A stretch of 32,099 bases of DNA, taken from the IMG/VR virus record IMGVR_UViG_3300042341_000555, positions 1-32,099 of that record, one strand, 5' to 3'. Position 1 is the stretch's first letter, and every line of letters starts with the position of its first letter. Positions 13,184 through 23,578 of this stretch are shown in pieces. The position numbers and the translations under genes were made by a program. The notes under the pieces were generated by a model, which worked only from the letters and a program-made list of their open reading frames with translations, was not told the origin of the DNA and ran no database searches. This DNA is from a virus.

Positions 13184-15322
13184 ATGACAACTATTGCCAA
13201 AAAGTCTATCCTCGCTCGTCTTCTTGCCCGTGAAAATATCACGGTCGAACAGACTAATCATCACACTGCCTTCTTTGACGTAGAACGCCGTATCCTTGGT
13301 CTTCCTTATTGGAAAGACGTCGGGAACGACCTCTACGATTTGCTCGTTGGCCATGAGATTGGTCACGCTCTTCATACTCCGGCTGATGGTTGGCATGAGT
13401 CGACTAGCGATATCCCGGGATGCCCTCGCTCTTATGTCAACATCGTCGAAGATATCCGCATCGAAAAGCTAGTGCTTCGTGAGTTCCCTGGTCTTTATGG
13501 GTCCTTCATGCGCGGTTATCAAGATCTTCTTGATCGTGACTTCTTCGGTATCAAAAACGAAAATGTTAACAAACTCTCGTTTATGAACCGGCTCAATATC
13601 TTCTCGAAAAGCCGTGGGTTGGTGAAAGTCAAGTTCTCCAAGAAAGAACAACCCTACGTCAATCGCGCTATGGCAGTTGAGACTTGGGATGATGTTATTG
13701 CTTCTTGCCGTGAACTCTATGCTTTCATGAAAGATGAGCTCGACACTGCTATCAAAGCTCAACAAGAACTGGAAGAAGCTATGAAGAAGGCTGGTATTAA
13801 GCCTCCCATGGGTATTCCTTCAAAGATCGTCGTCAGCAAGGGTAATGGAAATTCTGGCGAAAAGTCTGAGCCAATGTCGGAAGAGCTGAAAGAAGCTATC
13901 CTCAACGGTGAAGTCGAGATCGAAGTTGACGTCGATAGCTTCAAACAAGAACAAGAAGAAAAGAATGAAGAAGGCGGTGATATTCCGATCACCGTCGATG
14001 CCGAAGACAATATCGAAGGTGTTGAAACTGACGCTCTCTTCCGTTCCGCTATCGCTCGTTCGCTAGTCGACTCAGTCAATGCTGGCGGATCGACCCTTTA
14101 TGCTAAGGGTCCGACTAAGGCAATGGCCAACGCAATCACTTCTCAATACGAAGCAGTAAAGAAAGGTCGCTATAAGAAAGTCGACTCAGCTGACTTTCCT
14201 GTGAAGAATTACATTCGCTTTATGTCTGACTTGAAAGACTCTGTCACGGTGATGGTGAAAGAGTTTGAGATGCGTAAGACTGCCCGCCGCTTTGCTCGGG
14301 CTCGGACCTCGACCAAAGGTTCGCTTGACGTTAACGTTCTTCATAAGTATAAGTTTGAAGACAACCTCTTCAAACAAGTGACTCACCTCGACGATGATCA
14401 GTCGCATGGTATGATGATGTTAATCGACTACTCTGGTTCGATGCATGGCATCCTGCCGAAAGTGATCAAACAAGTTCTCATCCTTTCTACCTTCTGCAAG
14501 CGGGTCAATATTCCTTTCGAGGTCTATGGCTTCACAAATCCTTACGGTGTTGGGTATGACTTCGGTGTTAAGGTTCGTGCTGCTAAACATGATCTGACTG
14601 CGGTCAACATGGGCAACACCCACGTGTTCAAGCTTATCGACTCGTCGATGCCGAAGAAAGTCTACGAAGAAGCCTTTAAAACTCTCTTTGCTCAGACCGG
14701 TCCAAATCGTCGGCAATGGATGGGTGCCCTTGAGACAATGGGTGGCACACCTCTCGACACTGCTATTCTTGCTATGTATCACCACATTGCTGACTTCAGG
14801 GTCAAGCACAATGTTCAAAAAATGAACTTCATCACTTTGACAGACGGTCAAGGCGATGGTCTTGGTATCGAAAACGGTATCGATGTTCGCGGTCAATCGT
14901 CGCGAGGCTACAATAAGCGTGTGATCGATATTCTGGGTCAGAAGCTCGCCGTTAACTATGGTTATGGTGCTATTACTCCTTGTCTTCTGAATGGCCTTCG
15001 CAACATGGGTGTGCGCACTATGAACTACCATTTGGTTTCTACTGGTGAGATCAAATATCAGATTGGTGCTCGCGATCCTCAAGAACTTGCTGATGCTCTT
15101 GCTCAAGTCAACAAAGATGGATGTGTTGTTATTGATAGTAACAATGGTTACGATCGTCAGATCTTCACTGTCCTCGGTGGCACTTCTAATGTTAAAGATG
15201 AAGATAGTGAAGATGATCTAGACGAAGATACTCGTGGGATCGCTTCGGCTTTCGCTAACAAAGCTTTCAAGCGCAAACAAAGCCGTTTGATTGCAGCAAA
15301 ATTTGCAGAAATTGTCAGTTAA
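13184..15322 (+). CDS. Large metallopeptidase-like vWA protein (CobT-like)
   Basis: A 712-residue protein. The N-terminal part has VGHEIGHALHT (HExxH at 57-61) and NIVEDIRIE (Glu near 89), a zincin-type metal site. An acidic/coiled middle region (QEQEEKNEEGG) follows. The C-terminal half is a vWA domain with MIDAS motif DYSGS (Asp415, Ser417, Ser419) and TLTDGQGDG. The architecture resembles CobT-like proteins that pair with MoxR/CobS AAA+ ATPases, and such an ATPase is the next gene. No CobN-like chelatase is present. It may remodel or degrade a host or phage complex; the target is not known. Confidence 0.8.
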   Translation: MTTIAKKSILARLLARENITVEQTNHHTAFFDVERRILGLPYWKDVGNDLYDLLVGHEIGHALHTPADGWHESTSDIPGCPRSYVNIVEDIRIEKLVLREFPGLYGSFMRGYQDLLDRDFFGIKNENVNKLSFMNRLNIFSKSRGLVKVKFSKKEQPYVNRAMAVETWDDVIASCRELYAFMKDELDTAIKAQQELEEAMKKAGIKPPMGIPSKIVVSKGNGNSGEKSEPMSEELKEAILNGEVEIEVDVDSFKQEQEEKNEEGGDIPITVDAEDNIEGVETDALFRSAIARSLVDSVNAGGSTLYAKGPTKAMANAITSQYEAVKKGRYKKVDSADFPVKNYIRFMSDLKDSVTVMVKEFEMRKTARRFARARTSTKGSLDVNVLHKYKFEDNLFKQVTHLDDDQSHGMMMLIDYSGSMHGILPKVIKQVLILSTFCKRVNIPFEVYGFTNPYGVGYDFGVKVRAAKHDLTAVNMGNTHVFKLIDSSMPKKVYEEAFKTLFAQTGPNRRQWMGALETMGGTPLDTAILAMYHHIADFRVKHNVQKMNFITLTDGQGDGLGIENGIDVRGQSSRGYNKRVIDILGQKLAVNYGYGAITPCLLNGLRNMGVRTMNYHLVSTGEIKYQIGARDPQELADALAQVNKDGCVVIDSNNGYDRQIFTVLGGTSNVKDEDSEDDLDEDTRGIASAFANKAFKRKQSRLIAAKFAEIVS

Positions 15323-15326
15323 GGGG

Positions 15327-15355
15327 TTGACATTTACCCTTAACTGGCTTATATA
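15327..15355 (+). promoter_or_regulatory. Early promoter with AGTAAGC leader
   Basis: TTGACA at 15327-15332, a 17-bp spacer and TATATA at 15350-15355, then GATCTAGTAAGCTAAGCAAC, a variant of the shared leader. Confidence 0.85.
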
Positions 15356-15390
15356 GATCTAGTAAGCTAAGCAACATTATGGAGACTTCC

Positions 15391-16521
15391 GTGACTGACG
15401 TTCAAAACTTCATCAACGCTATCCGTGAATCAAATCCCGAAACCACTTCCTTCACTCGCAAAGCTCTTCTCGACTTTGCTGACGCCCATGGTATCAAACA
15501 TAACGTTGTTTGGGGTGTGATCAAATCTGTCCCCGCCGTTAAGCGCGGTGTCTATGATCTCGCTGCGACTGTTACTCAACTTCGCCCTACTCCTCCTATT
15601 GCTCCTGCGATCGTTCTCTCTGAAGAAGGTACGTATGTTCCTAAACGTGTCAAGACCTACGTAAAGTGGGGACACTTCAAAGACATCTCGACCATCATCG
15701 ACTCGAAGATGTTTTACCCGGTCTATGTCACCGGCCTCTCGGGTAACGGTAAGACCATGATGGTTGAACAGGCTTGTGCCGAAGCCAATCGTGAATACAT
15801 CCGTGTTCAGATCACTCCTGAGACTGATGAGGATGATTTGATTGGCGGCTTCCGACTGGTTAACGGTGAGACTGTCTTCTCGAAGGGTCCAGTCATCAAA
15901 GCCATGGAAGCTGGTGCAATCCTTTTGGTCGACGAGATTGACCGTGGTTCGAATAAGCTCATGGCTCTTCAGGGTGTTCTCGAAGGTAAGCCAGTTCTCA
16001 TCAAAAAGACTGGTGAGCTCGTGACTCCGGCGCTTGGTTTCAACGTGATCGCAACTTCGAACACCAAGGGTAAGGGTTCTGAGGATGGCCGCTTCATCGC
16101 TGCCACGATCATCGATGAAGCTTTCCTTGAGCGCTTCACTATCACAATGGAACAACCCTACCCCACTGCTCCAGTTGAGAAGAAGATCGTTGTCAAACAC
16201 ATGGAACTCTATGGCCAAGTTGACGATGACTTCGCTGAGAACCTGACGAAGTGGTCGTCTGCTATCCGCAAGACCTTTGATGATGGCGGTATTGACGAGA
16301 TCATCTCCACTCGTCGGCTGTGCCATATTGCTCAGACCTTCGCGATCTTCAAAGATCGTAAGAAGTCGATTGACCTCTGTGTTTCTCGCTTTGATGAAGA
16401 TACTCGGGCTGCCTTCGTCGACCTTTACACGAAGATTGATGCAGCTGCTTCTGCTCCGAGCGGAAAGACTCATATCACTAGCAATCCTGACGACGACTAC
16501 CGTAACGACTCTCCTTTCTGA
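15391..16521 (+). CDS. cobS: CobS/MoxR-like AAA+ ATPase
   Basis: 376 residues from GTG 15391, preferred because GGAG (15381-15384) is six bases upstream; the in-frame ATG 15379 has no RBS. Walker A is GLSGNGKT (115-122), Walker B ILLVDEID (177-184), with DEDDLIGGFRL and SNTKGKG as MoxR/CobS hallmarks and the arginine-finger region EAFLERFT. CobS-like ATPases are known in cyanophages, where a link to cobalamin synthesis was proposed; MoxR ATPases generally work with vWA partners, and here the partner is the preceding gene. The two probably form one complex. Confidence 0.88.
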   Translation: MTDVQNFINAIRESNPETTSFTRKALLDFADAHGIKHNVVWGVIKSVPAVKRGVYDLAATVTQLRPTPPIAPAIVLSEEGTYVPKRVKTYVKWGHFKDISTIIDSKMFYPVYVTGLSGNGKTMMVEQACAEANREYIRVQITPETDEDDLIGGFRLVNGETVFSKGPVIKAMEAGAILLVDEIDRGSNKLMALQGVLEGKPVLIKKTGELVTPALGFNVIATSNTKGKGSEDGRFIAATIIDEAFLERFTITMEQPYPTAPVEKKIVVKHMELYGQVDDDFAENLTKWSSAIRKTFDDGGIDEIISTRRLCHIAQTFAIFKDRKKSIDLCVSRFDEDTRAAFVDLYTKIDAAASAPSGKTHITSNPDDDYRNDSPF

Positions 16522-17784: not shown

Positions 17785-17874
17785 ATGGAGAAACAAGAAG
17801 AACAAAAAGAAGCTCCATCTGCGCCTAGACACGAAGAATACCTTGAGAAACAACGTCGATATGATAAAGGTTAA
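17785..17874 (+). CDS. Tiny charged protein (29 aa), tentative
   Basis: ATG 17785 is 5 bp after GAGGT 17775-17779 and encodes MEKQEEQKEAPSAPRHEEYL followed by EKQRRYDKG. The good RBS and tight spacing after the preceding gene support translation, but length alone gives little evidence. Confidence 0.45.
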   Translation: MEKQEEQKEAPSAPRHEEYLEKQRRYDKG

Positions 17875-17882
17875 AATTTTAG

Positions 17883-17913
17883 TTGACATTAACGAGTAGA
17901 TAGTATATAAATA
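17883..17913 (+). promoter_or_regulatory. Dual early/late promoter for the tmRNA gene
   Basis: TTGACA at 17883-17888, a 17-bp spacer and TATAAA at 17906-17911. The same site reads TATAAATA (17906-17913), a perfect late element. Transcription would start near 17918. Confidence 0.75.
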
Positions 17914-17918
17914 TACTT

Positions 17919-17979
17919 GTAGTGATGATATTCACTGAACACGTTCTGGACACCGGGGCAGTACCGGTCGGGTCCACCA
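17919..17979 (+). ncRNA. tmRNA acceptor piece
   Basis: Carries the T-arm stem of five perfect pairs, the seven-base acceptor 3' strand, discriminator A and genomic CCA. The left end is set by the predicted transcription start; processing may trim it. Confidence 0.8.
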
Positions 17980-18055
17980 CAGATACATTAGAAGACGTTC
18001 TCTACCGTATAGCGCGGCTGAAGTCAACAGGGTGGTTGATTAATGTATCTTTGAT

Positions 18056-18230
18056 GGGCCCGAAATTAGGATCGACAGGCGGACTAGGCAGGATGGAGCT
18101 ATCGGGATCTAAGCACCGTTATCGCGAAGAAAATAACAAATGCAAATGAAAATTCTGCACCTGTAGCTTACGCTCTCGCAGCCTAATCTACTTGGGTTGG
18201 CAACTTACCTCGAAACAGAAAAGTTGCGCT
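18056..18230 (+). ncRNA. tmRNA coding piece
   Basis: Starts at the base that pairs with the acceptor strand, where RNase P would cut. GTTAT (18118-18122) can pair with ATAAC (18133-18137) just before the tag. After the tag, GCAACTT (18200-18206) pairs with AAGTTGC (18221-18227), a likely 3' hairpin. The exact 3' end is a guess. Confidence 0.75.
18142..18186 (+). other. tmRNA tag reading frame: ANENSAPVAYALAA
   Basis: Resume codon GCA at 18142, 14 codons and TAA at 18184-18186. The ending YALAA is the classic protease-recognition end of ssrA tags, and ANEN at the front matches the usual A-N-D/E start. Confidence 0.88.
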
Positions 18231-18263: not shown

Positions 18264-19118
18264 ATGGCATCACGTCGCATTACTGCACAAGCAGCGGTTA
18301 TCCCAACTTACATTGGTGGATACGTTCAACCTACTACTTCCGCAATTCCTGGAACTATTACGTTGGGCTTGACTCAATCAGTCGCTCAACCAGCAAATCT
18401 CGGCCAAGCTTTCAAACCTAAGCGGGCTGGCAAAAATCCAAATCTATCTCACATCATCTTCGTCCTCGACGAATCCTCTTCGATGTCGTCTTGCTGGGAT
18501 CAAACTATCTCGGGCTACAACGAATATCTGAAGGCTCAGAAAGAAGACGCTGAAAAGACTGGCATCAAAACTCTGGTTTCGCTCTACAAATTCAATGGTC
18601 ATAATGTAGATTGCATTTTCGATCGTCAAGACGTTCAAGAAGTAACTCCTCTGACGAAGTCAAGCTACCGCCCAAGCGGTGGTACCAACCTTCTCGACGC
18701 TATGGGTGGTGTCATGCTTAAGCTTAATATTCTTCTTGCAGAAAAGAAGAAGGCCGATCGTGAATCGGTTATCGTCACTATTCTTACTGACGGCGAAGAG
18801 AATCAGTCTCGCACCTTCCGTAACGAAGACATCAAAGTGATGGTCGAAAAAGCAGAAGGTAAGAACTGGGGCTTCATGTTCCTCGGTGCAAACATTGACG
18901 CATTCCATGCCGGTGCTGCTATGGGTTTCAACCAGAACAACACAATGCAGTTCTCTACTGCTAATGCCGCTGAAACCTTCCGTTCAGCTTCTGCAATGAC
19001 TTCTCGTATGAAAGGTGACTATGCTTCTGGTATGGCCACTATGAATTCTTACGCTGTATCGGCATTCAATGACGCTGAGCGTAAAGCCGCTGTAGGTGAT
19101 AAAGATGCAGGGAAATAA
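18264..19118 (+). CDS. Stand-alone vWA-domain protein
   Basis: 284 residues from ATG 18264, eight bases after GAGG; the longer in-frame ORF runs back into the tmRNA and is not used. The N-terminus is Ala/Thr/Pro rich. The vWA fold has the MIDAS motif IFVLDESSSM (Asp69, Ser71, Ser73), GGTNLLDAM with the conserved Thr, and VTILTDGEENQS. After it, a helical segment ends the chain. vWA proteins often partner MoxR-type ATPases, and one lies 2 kb upstream. Similar proteins occur in T4-like phages without known role. Confidence 0.85.
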   Translation: MASRRITAQAAVIPTYIGGYVQPTTSAIPGTITLGLTQSVAQPANLGQAFKPKRAGKNPNLSHIIFVLDESSSMSSCWDQTISGYNEYLKAQKEDAEKTGIKTLVSLYKFNGHNVDCIFDRQDVQEVTPLTKSSYRPSGGTNLLDAMGGVMLKLNILLAEKKKADRESVIVTILTDGEENQSRTFRNEDIKVMVEKAEGKNWGFMFLGANIDAFHAGAAMGFNQNNTMQFSTANAAETFRSASAMTSRMKGDYASGMATMNSYAVSAFNDAERKAAVGDKDAGK

Positions 19119-19930: not shown

Positions 19931-20896
19931 ATGAAAGTACTTTTACTTAGCACTACATTAGCTTTGGCTGTAGCATCTACCGCATTTGCAAGAGATAACG
20001 TCCAAGTAACTGGATCGTCAACCGTCTTGCCTTATGCAACAATTGTAGCAGAAGCATTTGGTGAAAACTTTGACTTTCCTTCGCCGGTTGTAGAAGGTGG
20101 TGGTTCAGGCGCTGGTCGCAAAAAGCTTTGCGAAGGTGTTGGTGAAAACACTGTTGATATTGCTAATAGTTCGTCAAAGATGAAAGACGAAGAATGGGCC
20201 AAGTGCGAAGAAGTAGTCGGTAAGGTTACTGAAGTTCGTATTGGTTATGATGGCATTGTATTTGCATCAAACATCGACCAATTGGGCATTAAGGATCTAA
20301 CAGTTCTTCAACTCTATACCGCATTGCATGCTGATAGCGCCGCAAAGCTTTGGAGCGATGTGGATTCTACTCTACCTGCAGTAGAGATTCTCGCTTATAT
20401 CCCAGGGACCAAGCACGGCACTCGTGAAGTGTTTGATGTGAAGGTTATGGAAGAAGGATGTAAGCAAGCACTCGGTGTTGAAAAGCTAGATGATGATCAA
20501 AAGAAGTCATGCGTTAAAGTTCGTACAGACGGCGCATCAGTTGATATCGATGGGGACTATACTGAAACCCTTGCTCGCCTCGATGCGAATAAAACAGCAC
20601 TTGGTGTATTTGGTCTTAGCTTCTATCAGAACAACACGAATAAACTAGAAGTCACTACTGTAAGCGGTGTATTCCCGAGCGTAGAGACGATTGCAAGTGG
20701 TGATTATCCAATCAGTCGTCCACTTTACTTCTATGTGAAGAACGCACATATCAGCGTAATTCCAGGACTTAAAGAGTACGTTGAATTCTTCGTGAGTGAT
20801 GATATGGCAGGTCCAGAAGGTGCACTGGCACAATATGGATTAGTTCCAGATCCTGAGCTTGCAGCAACTCAAGAGATGGTTTCTGGTATCGAATAA
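19931..20896 (+). CDS. pstS: PstS-type periplasmic phosphate-binding protein
   Basis: 321 residues. The signal peptide (MKVLLLSTTLALAVASTAFA) is followed by VQVTGSSTVLPYATIVAEAF, the PstS phosphate loop (T-G-S-S-T-V), then EGGGSGAGRKKLCEG and DIANSSSKMK, all PstS hallmarks. GTKHGTREVF and RPLYFYVK match the second lobe. The protein binds phosphate in the periplasm for the host Pst transporter and would aid uptake during infection, as proposed for cyanophage pstS. It has its own promoter, shielded from upstream genes by a terminator. GTGGAG precedes the start. Confidence 0.92.
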   Translation: MKVLLLSTTLALAVASTAFARDNVQVTGSSTVLPYATIVAEAFGENFDFPSPVVEGGGSGAGRKKLCEGVGENTVDIANSSSKMKDEEWAKCEEVVGKVTEVRIGYDGIVFASNIDQLGIKDLTVLQLYTALHADSAAKLWSDVDSTLPAVEILAYIPGTKHGTREVFDVKVMEEGCKQALGVEKLDDDQKKSCVKVRTDGASVDIDGDYTETLARLDANKTALGVFGLSFYQNNTNKLEVTTVSGVFPSVETIASGDYPISRPLYFYVKNAHISVIPGLKEYVEFFVSDDMAGPEGALAQYGLVPDPELAATQEMVSGIE

Positions 20897-21567: not shown

Positions 21568-21774
21568 ATGCTTATTTCAACTTTTTTTAAAGAAAATGCT
21601 CATTCAGCTCGAGCCGAAGTAATGAAAAATACCGCCGGTGATTACTACTACATTGACTACTACGATCAAGGCGGAAACAAGTTTTACACCGAGACCTTTC
21701 CTGGAAAGTCTATTCACTACGTTGAAGACGCTGCAGAAAACTGGTCTATCAACACAAAGGTGTTACACGGATAA
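21568..21774 (+). CDS. Unknown small protein ahead of gp33 (68 aa)
   Basis: ATG 21568 follows AGGAGA. The chain is beta-rich and aromatic (ARAEVMKNTAGDYYYIDYY, then NKFYTETFPGKSIHYVEDAAENW). Its stop overlaps the gp33 start (TAATG). This pattern, with GKSIHYVEDAAENW, is common in T4-like marine phages before gp33; function unknown. Confidence 0.75.
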   Translation: MLISTFFKENAHSARAEVMKNTAGDYYYIDYYDQGGNKFYTETFPGKSIHYVEDAAENWSINTKVLHG

Positions 21775-21998
21775 TGCAAATAGAACTGACAGCGGAAAGT
21801 ATTCTCCGTGAAGTCAGCAAATACGTGAACGAAGATGTTTCATACATCGATGCGCTTGTTCATTATGCTGAAGTTCACGGAGTAGAAATTGAAGTAATTG
21901 GTGACATCGTACGCCGAAGCCAGATTATTAAAGCTCGTGTACATGAAGACGCCGAAAAACTTAACTTAGTAGAAAGAACACAGAGGTTACCAATCTAA
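21774..21998 (+). CDS. 33: gp33-like late-transcription coactivator
   Basis: 74 residues, shorter than T4 gp33 (~112). The body YIDALVHYAEVHGVEIEVIGD and the C-terminal EDAEKLNLVERTQRLPI match the short gp33 of marine T4-like phages. gp33 bridges host RNA polymerase and the sliding clamp so that the late sigma factor gp55 can use TATAAATA promoters. Its place directly before gp59 and gp32 is the T4-like neighbourhood and strengthens the call. TAATG overlaps join it to both neighbours. Confidence 0.82.
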   Translation: MQIELTAESILREVSKYVNEDVSYIDALVHYAEVHGVEIEVIGDIVRRSQIIKARVHEDAEKLNLVERTQRLPI

Positions 21999-22636: not shown

Positions 22637-23578
22637 ATGTCTAGCTCATTCGCAGCTCTCAAAAAAGCCCGTTCGTCTTCGTTCGACAAACTGAACCAGC
22701 AACTTCAAAAGACGGCAGGCGGCCAATCCAACAACAACGATGACAAATACTGGAAGCCCGATGTCGATAAGGCCGGGAATGGATACGCTGTTATCCGCTT
22801 CTTGCCTGCCCCAGAAGGTGAAGATGTTCCATTTGTCAAGATGCATGACCATGGTTTCCAAGGTCCTGGTGGTTGGTATATTGAGAACTCTTTGACCACA
22901 CTTGGTCAAGATGATCCGGTCTCTGAACATAATTCCAAGCTTTGGAACTCTGGTAATGAGGCTGACAAAGAAATCGCGCGCAAGCAAAAGCGTCGCACTA
23001 ACTTTCATGCCAACATCTATATTGTAAAGGATGCTGCTAACCCTGCAAATGAGGGTAAGGTATTCCTTTACAAGTTTGGTAAGAAAATTATGGAGAAGCT
23101 TCAGGAAGCAATGAACCCACAGTACGAAGGTGAGACTCCGGTTAACCCATTCGACATGTGGGAGGGTGCTGACTTCAAACTGAAGATTCGTAACTACGAA
23201 GGCTACCGTAACTATGATCGCTCTGAGTTCAGTGAAGCCGGTCCCATGACAAACTCACGTGGTGAGTCATTTACCGACGAACAACTTGAAGAGATCTGGA
23301 AGCAACAGCATTCTCTGAAAGAGATCGTCGATCCTAAAAACTTCAAGACCTACGCTGAACTGAAGACTAAACTCTATAAGGTTCTCGGCCTTGATGGCAG
23401 CTCACACGCACCCATGAAATCGGCTGCCGAGGACGACGCGGAGATGGACTTCACTCCAAAGTTTAAAGAGCGTTCCGCTCCTAAGCAGGAGGAAACTCCA
23501 TCTCCGTCATTCACTCCATCGTTGGATGAAGACGACGATACTCTCGACTTCTTCAAGAGTCTAGCGGCTGGAGACTGA
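22637..23578 (+). CDS. 32: gp32-like single-stranded DNA-binding protein
   Basis: 313 residues (T4 gp32 is 301). The N-terminal Ser/Lys/Arg segment (FAALKKARSSSFDKLNQQL) is the cooperativity region. The OB-fold core holds KYWKPDVDKAGNGYAVIRFLP, GWYIENSLTTLGQDDPVSEHN, KRRTNFHANIYIV and FKLKIRNYEGYRNYDRSEF. The acidic tail DEDDDTLDFFKSLAAGD recruits partner proteins. No cysteine is present, so the T4-type zinc site is missing. AAGGA lies 8 bp upstream. A hairpin follows the gene. Confidence 0.93.
   Translation: MSSSFAALKKARSSSFDKLNQQLQKTAGGQSNNNDDKYWKPDVDKAGNGYAVIRFLPAPEGEDVPFVKMHDHGFQGPGGWYIENSLTTLGQDDPVSEHNSKLWNSGNEADKEIARKQKRRTNFHANIYIVKDAANPANEGKVFLYKFGKKIMEKLQEAMNPQYEGETPVNPFDMWEGADFKLKIRNYEGYRNYDRSEFSEAGPMTNSRGESFTDEQLEEIWKQQHSLKEIVDPKNFKTYAELKTKLYKVLGLDGSSHAPMKSAAEDDAEMDFTPKFKERSAPKQEETPSPSFTPSLDEDDDTLDFFKSLAAGD

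Follow-up and report, generated by a model that had tools for sequence, protein, structure and literature searches.

The window, by which we mean the whole 32,099-nt stretch of viral DNA that was analysed, is by its gene content a 32-kb virus record of a T4-like phage, and its plus strand carries a tmRNA gene (Table 1). In a cmscan search of Rfam, this locus is matched by alpha_tmRNA (RF01849; 17879-18230, 100.2 bits against a cut-off of 50, E 1.8e-26) and by tmRNA_permuted (RF04321; 17919-18186, 97.9 bits against a cut-off of 47, E 4.1e-18). A preliminary description made from the letters alone had proposed a phage-encoded, permuted, two-piece tmRNA of the alphaproteobacterial type with the tag ANENSAPVAYALAA; both models bear this out at scores above their cut-offs, and every part that it had listed was found in the sequence. 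Of the two programs it had named as checks, the Rfam models thus gave the expected result, but ARAGORN called no tmRNA in the window, so that annotation relying on ARAGORN would overlook the gene.

Table 1. Features of the tmRNA locus and of its genomic surroundings
Feature	Position	Strand	Basis or remark
TTGACA, sigma-70-type −35 box	17883..17888	+	exact match; spaced by 17 nt from the −10/late octamer
TATAAATA, T4-type late-promoter octamer overlapping the −10 position (TATAAA)	17906..17913	+	
Acceptor (3′) piece of mature tmRNA	17919..17979	+	RF04321 model position 1 = 17919; CCA 17977-17979
5′ hairpin of the acceptor piece, AGTGA/TCACT	17921..17936	+	fold
T-arm: stem ACCGG/CCGGU, loop GGCAGUA	17952..17968	+	covariance model and covariation
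Acceptor 3′ strand CGGGUCC (17969-17975), discriminator A73 (17976), encoded CCA (17977-17979)	17969..17979	+	
Intervening spacer, 76 nt, expected to be removed	17980..18055	+	hairpin, fold −19.8 kcal/mol
Tag-bearing (5′) piece, begins with acceptor strand GGGCCCG	18056..18230	+	3′ end approximate, from RF01849
Tag reading frame ANENSAPVAYALAA and stop TAA	18142..18186	+	
VWA-domain gene directly downstream of the tmRNA	18264..19118	+	phrog_7371, E 2.5e-43
Late-promoter regulator, gp33-like	21774..21998	+	phrog_25387, E 1.3e-14
gp32 single-strand DNA binding protein, synteny anchor	22637..23578	+	PF08804, E 7.2e-46

Reading of the sequence together with its fold confirms the reversed gene order: T-arm and acceptor strand with CCA, spacer, acceptor 5′ strand, tag. 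The acceptor stem has seven pairs, formed by 18056-18062 with 17969-17975, and includes G3:U70, the alanine identity pair read by alanyl-tRNA synthetase (AlaRS). The spacer hairpin is closed by AGATACATTA/TAATGTATCT (17981-17990/18041-18050) and, in the predicted fold of the precursor, stacks on the acceptor stem. The tag frame opens with Ala and closes with the Ala-Ala recognised by proteases. In the 5′ P2-like region, some pairings are non-canonical relative to the Rfam consensus, and at the site of the 5′ hairpin of the acceptor piece some relatives have other stems. Judged by its sequence, the locus is a complete and bona fide permuted alpha-type (two-piece) tmRNA gene. Compared with known phages at the nucleotide level, the locus gave zero matches. 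Between 16900 and 18400, no other Rfam family was seen up to E 5, and no glutamine riboswitch was found at the tmRNA. A protein frame within the spacer of the window was considered and rejected, as it has only TTG starts and runs into the tmRNA.

No terminator-like site was found on the plus strand between the tmRNA and the VWA gene (the Pfam VWA match of which stays below the cut-off), and the two are probably co-transcribed. The assignment to a T4-like phage, also made in the preliminary description, holds: besides gp32 and the gp33-like regulator, the window encodes gp59 (PF08993), PhoH, and baseplate, tail, tail tube and head-closure proteins, and it has late promoters of the TATAAATA type. 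Elsewhere in the window lie a PstS-like phosphate-binding protein gene (19931-20896, downstream of the VWA gene; PF12849, E 6.8e-50) and, at 13184-16521, a pair encoding a CobT-like peptidase (phrog_459) and a CobS/MoxR-like AAA ATPase (phrog_249). Immediately before the tmRNA promoter there is a 29-codon frame, MEKQEEQKEAPSAPRHEEYLEKQRRYDKG (17785-17874), the 3′ part of which recurs upstream of the tmRNA in one relative (L223).

The T stem, the acceptor stem and the spacer-closing helix were examined for covariation in 29 distinct phage sequences. Across these helices, 99.3% of cells are paired, a figure to be read with the choice of loci by a script that required paired acceptor and T stems, which favours pairing there, not in the spacer helix. 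Such selection cannot alone generate compensatory changes: 105 cells are changed on both sides, against a shuffled mean of 29.9, and none of 500 shuffles reaches 105. Moreover, sliding the partners by 1-3 columns cuts pairing to 34-50%. In the T-arm every cell is paired, with two-sided changes in three pairs; the spacer-closing helix also covaries, and both G3:U70 and CCA are invariant. We take the helices to be real, that is, not due to chance and under selection.

The gene is also constant in its location. All gp32 relatives of at least 69% identity for which enough upstream sequence is available have a permuted tmRNA approximately 3.5-5 kb upstream of gp32; the close relatives lacking a tmRNA match are contigs that stop short of that position. 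In two contigs, gp32 and the tag are both identical to those of the window. As far as can be read from these contigs, the lineage keeps the tmRNA gene at one fixed genome position. Among remoter gp32 relatives a tmRNA is present in part of them, with GGTTTCGAC-type cores or tags such as ANDSQFALAA, and the tmRNA type therefore varies within the group. The conserved TCGAC pattern is unspecific by itself: only 14 of the 80 contigs fetched with it have an alpha_tmRNA.

The tag had been likened to those of Rhodobacterales; this likeness is not supported. In the GTDB-representative collection, which covers 84,980 species of bacteria and archaea, no genome has the exact pattern, and none has the loosened form AN[DE]NxAPxAYALAA. 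As a positive control, the exact pattern recovered two near-identical viral contigs. Tags of the kin, which include ANENFAPVAYALAA and ANDNVAPVAYALAA, are diverse in sequence, and nearly all have AN at the start and AA, mostly ALAA, at the end; varied tags with such constant ends are the pattern expected if tagging is under selection. In three kindred loci (L278, L362 and L297), the predicted tags are unusually long, at 29 residues (e.g. ANDNVSNVFSFVDFGSLKNYVNEDYALAA).

The sequence ahead of the tmRNA combines two kinds of promoter element. When TATAAATA is counted from −13, as in T4, the predicted start is 17919, where the mature acceptor piece begins. The sigma-70 consensus has T at the sixth −10 position, making TATAAA a weaker −10. 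The octamer is the T4 late motif (PMC2984593); it occurs seven times in the window against 1.4 expected, a number equalled in none of 100 shuffles, and two of these sites (28426/28450) form a divergent pair in the interval that separates head-closure genes from tail genes. Upstream of the tmRNAs of the kin, 36 of 53 distinct regions have it, against a mononucleotide-shuffle rate of 0.8% for each region, and 17 lack it; the regions are related and the counts, therefore, not independent. Measured from the CCA end, its position is −74 to −79 in 34 of the 53 and −67 in two more. The TTGACA box, too, recurs upstream of most related phage tmRNAs, and 33 of the 36 octamer-bearing regions have a −35 matching in at least five of six positions. 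Additionally, a 195-kb relative, G092 (L243, L244), has 41 copies of TATAAATA and 207 of TTGACA, and the composite TTGACA-N15-18-TATAAATA occurs six times where independence would predict 0.09; at three other spacing ranges, it occurs 0, 1 and 0 times. Of these six composites, one stands upstream of the tmRNA, two upstream of tRNA genes, and the others upstream of sliding-clamp-like, Hsp20-like and nucleotidyltransferase-like genes, the last three names having been assigned by eye. G092 has 42 tRNA calls by ARAGORN, and two of its composite early/late promoters lie among the tRNA genes. Overlapping early and late promoters have been proposed to underlie middle transcription in those T4-like phages that lack MotA, and to stand in for middle promoters in RB49 and the cyanomyoviruses (PMC2984593). 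The tmRNA promoter fits both sigma-70 and T4-late types, and its best reading is one of predicted expression from early through late infection. It is this dual reading of the promoter that is new for the gene in the window.

The mechanism that we infer begins with RNA polymerase, which would start at approximately 17919, early as the unmodified host sigma-70 enzyme acting on TTGACA/TATAAA, and late through the phage machinery acting on TATAAATA. The precursor would fold with the 76-nt spacer extending the acceptor stem, to be cut by host tRNA-processing nucleases at about 17979/17980 and 18055/18056, and the two resulting RNAs would stay joined via the acceptor stem and flanking pairings. Host alanyl-tRNA synthetase would then charge the tmRNA via G3:U70; together with host SmpB, the tmRNA would enter stalled ribosomes and add ANENSAPVAYALAA, and host proteases would destroy the tagged products. 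No SmpB gene was found in the twelve records searched (the window and eleven related ones), so that function would depend on the host, in which SmpB is presumed. The gain to the phage would most likely be the recycling of ribosomes during the mRNA degradation of infection. The tmRNA is taken to be functional from covariance-model scores twice the curated cut-offs, a structure upheld by covariation, the invariant G3:U70 and CCA, the tag pattern, synteny and conservation across relatives, and the promoter motifs. We consider it very probable that this permuted alpha-type tmRNA gene of a T4-like phage is functional, has been kept by vertical descent, and acts in the manner outlined.

An alternative for the promoter is a plain sigma-70 element in which TATAAA serves as the −10; its resemblance to the late octamer would then be incidental and the tmRNA early only. 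Such is how the tmRNA of phage Melnitz has been read (PMC9004378), and a TTGACA-like −35 is kept in most of the kin, including eight upstream regions without TATAAATA. However, most other TTGACA promoters of G092 have a −10 ending in T, whereas six have exactly TATAAATA; moreover, the octamer stands without a −35 upstream of many other genes, including at the divergent pair noted above, and the window itself encodes a gp33-like regulator. We consider an early-only promoter unlikely, if still a serious competitor to the dual one.

As to the role of the RNA, it might be directed against the host as a decoy, competing with or inhibiting host trans-translation by titrating SmpB or AlaRS. There is a precedent of sorts in the tmRNA of phage DS6A, cited in a passage of PMC4131195 as extending barely beyond the tRNA-like domain, a type that strongly inhibits tmRNA; but in the window and across divergent kin, the tag frame is intact, with its resume codon, stop and AA terminus, none of which a decoy needs, and we regard this role as improbable. 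Even less credible is a recently captured host gene or a functionless remnant, despite the alphaproteobacterial type of the tmRNA and the known presence of host ssrA fragments in prophages (PMC9004378): the compensatory stem changes already disfavour it, the gene occupies the same site upstream of gp32 down to 69% gp32 identity, it has its own promoter, and its tag was not found in bacterial genomes. A working tmRNA that serves the phage remains the reading that we prefer.

Two-piece tmRNAs have been described for Melnitz and for further phages of aquatic origin, 53 among 18,146 phage genomes, 50 of these being aquatic (PMC9004378). With HTVC008M (below) they place the gene in the window in a known class; the rarity and surprise stressed in the preliminary description are diminished by that count and by the frequency with which gp32 relatives carry one. 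Melnitz (MZ577097) is likewise a T4-like phage with a permuted alphaproteobacteria-like tmRNA (PMC9004378), located, as in the window, upstream of genes for a late coactivator, gp59 and the ssDNA-binding protein, and preceded by TTGACA-N17-TATAAATA. It differs in its tag (ANDNYVPVDYALAA, from ARAGORN), in its downstream gene, which in the window is VWA, in a longer spacer (L461) holding an open frame of at least 40 codons, and in the glutamine riboswitch described for the published gene (PMC9004378), no counterpart of which was found at the tmRNA of the window. The type of RNA makes an alphaproteobacterial host plausible but does not settle it: Melnitz, with its alphaproteobacteria-like tmRNA, infects a gammaproteobacterium (PMC9004378). 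In Pelagibacter phage HTVC008M, the present analysis located a permuted tmRNA at 145161-145370 (RF04321, 90.6 bits), also just before the late-promoter factor and gp59, but with a shorter spacer, the tag ANFNEYALAA, an overlap with the annotated upstream gene, and no TATAAATA motif upstream of the tmRNA. With alphaproteobacterial ssrA (RF01849), the gene in the window shares gene order, acceptor stem, T-arm, CCA and the LAA end of the tag, whereas its promoter is that of a phage, its tag is unseen in bacterial genomes, and its 5′ hairpin and 3′ domain have diverged. The tmRNAs of mycobacteriophages and Bacillus phage G we take to be one-piece and not permuted. They are also phage-encoded, but belong to phages of Gram-positive hosts (PMC4131195).

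The spacers of the phage tmRNAs compared range from 12 to 464 nt, and several hold reading frames; that of the window is the empty, 76-nt form. The 464-nt spacer (L131) contains a 131-codon ORF resembling an HNH homing endonuclease (phrog_655, E 2.3e-13; PF01844 at the cut-off), which ends one base before the acceptor strand, and another (L233) has 63 codons matching phrog_1679 (E 8.2e-6). By a strict test, 27 of 80 loci have a member of a conserved 62-residue family, MEIIWHILLTVC..., nested in the spacer (L381-L391, L394-L396, L404, L429, L434, L435, L437, L439, L441-L444, L446, L447 and L450); L414, L416 and L418 fail the test only through a core reading TAGGATAGAC. The nested genes of this family always have TAAGGA right behind CCA and a TGA stop one base short of the acceptor strand. 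Comparison of 20 nested copies gave a mean pN of 0.123 against a mean pS of 0.438 (ratio 0.28), with pN below pS in 187 of 190 pairs; for the other frames, this signal is weaker. Other phages have the family as a free-standing gene, one example being the gene immediately upstream of the tmRNA in Melnitz. Unrelated small ORFs occupy further spacers (55 aa in L278/L362, 41 aa in L356/L370, 50 aa in L231, and that of Melnitz), most starting right behind TAAGGA or a comparable SD-like sequence; for two further spacer proteins, tblastn against known phages gave no match. In most of the spacer-gene kin, the SD-like TAAGGA is directly behind CCA, and in several the stop codon falls within the conserved spacer end, so that a single transcript would act as either mRNA or tmRNA precursor. 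Since TAAGGA lies in the closing helix, translation and tmRNA maturation could compete. Protein genes nested in tmRNA spacers appear to be undescribed in the literature searched: the paper on the tmRNA database from 2025 mentions one tRNA gene and one repetitive element as contents of such spacers, whereas the homing endonuclease genes that it reports are all in introns of tmRNAs (PMC11915505). On balance, we lean towards viewing the tmRNA gene as a translation-support unit of middle mode (early plus late), with the discarded spacer as a slot that has repeatedly taken up protein genes.

A tmRNA frees stalled ribosomes and marks unfinished proteins for destruction. The T4-like lineage studied here keeps a ribosome-rescue RNA of its own in a fixed place, and some 40 phage tRNAs are encoded by a long relative as well; the promoter predicts expression through most of infection. 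With a gene so placed and such a promoter, why lytic phages bring a tmRNA becomes a testable question.
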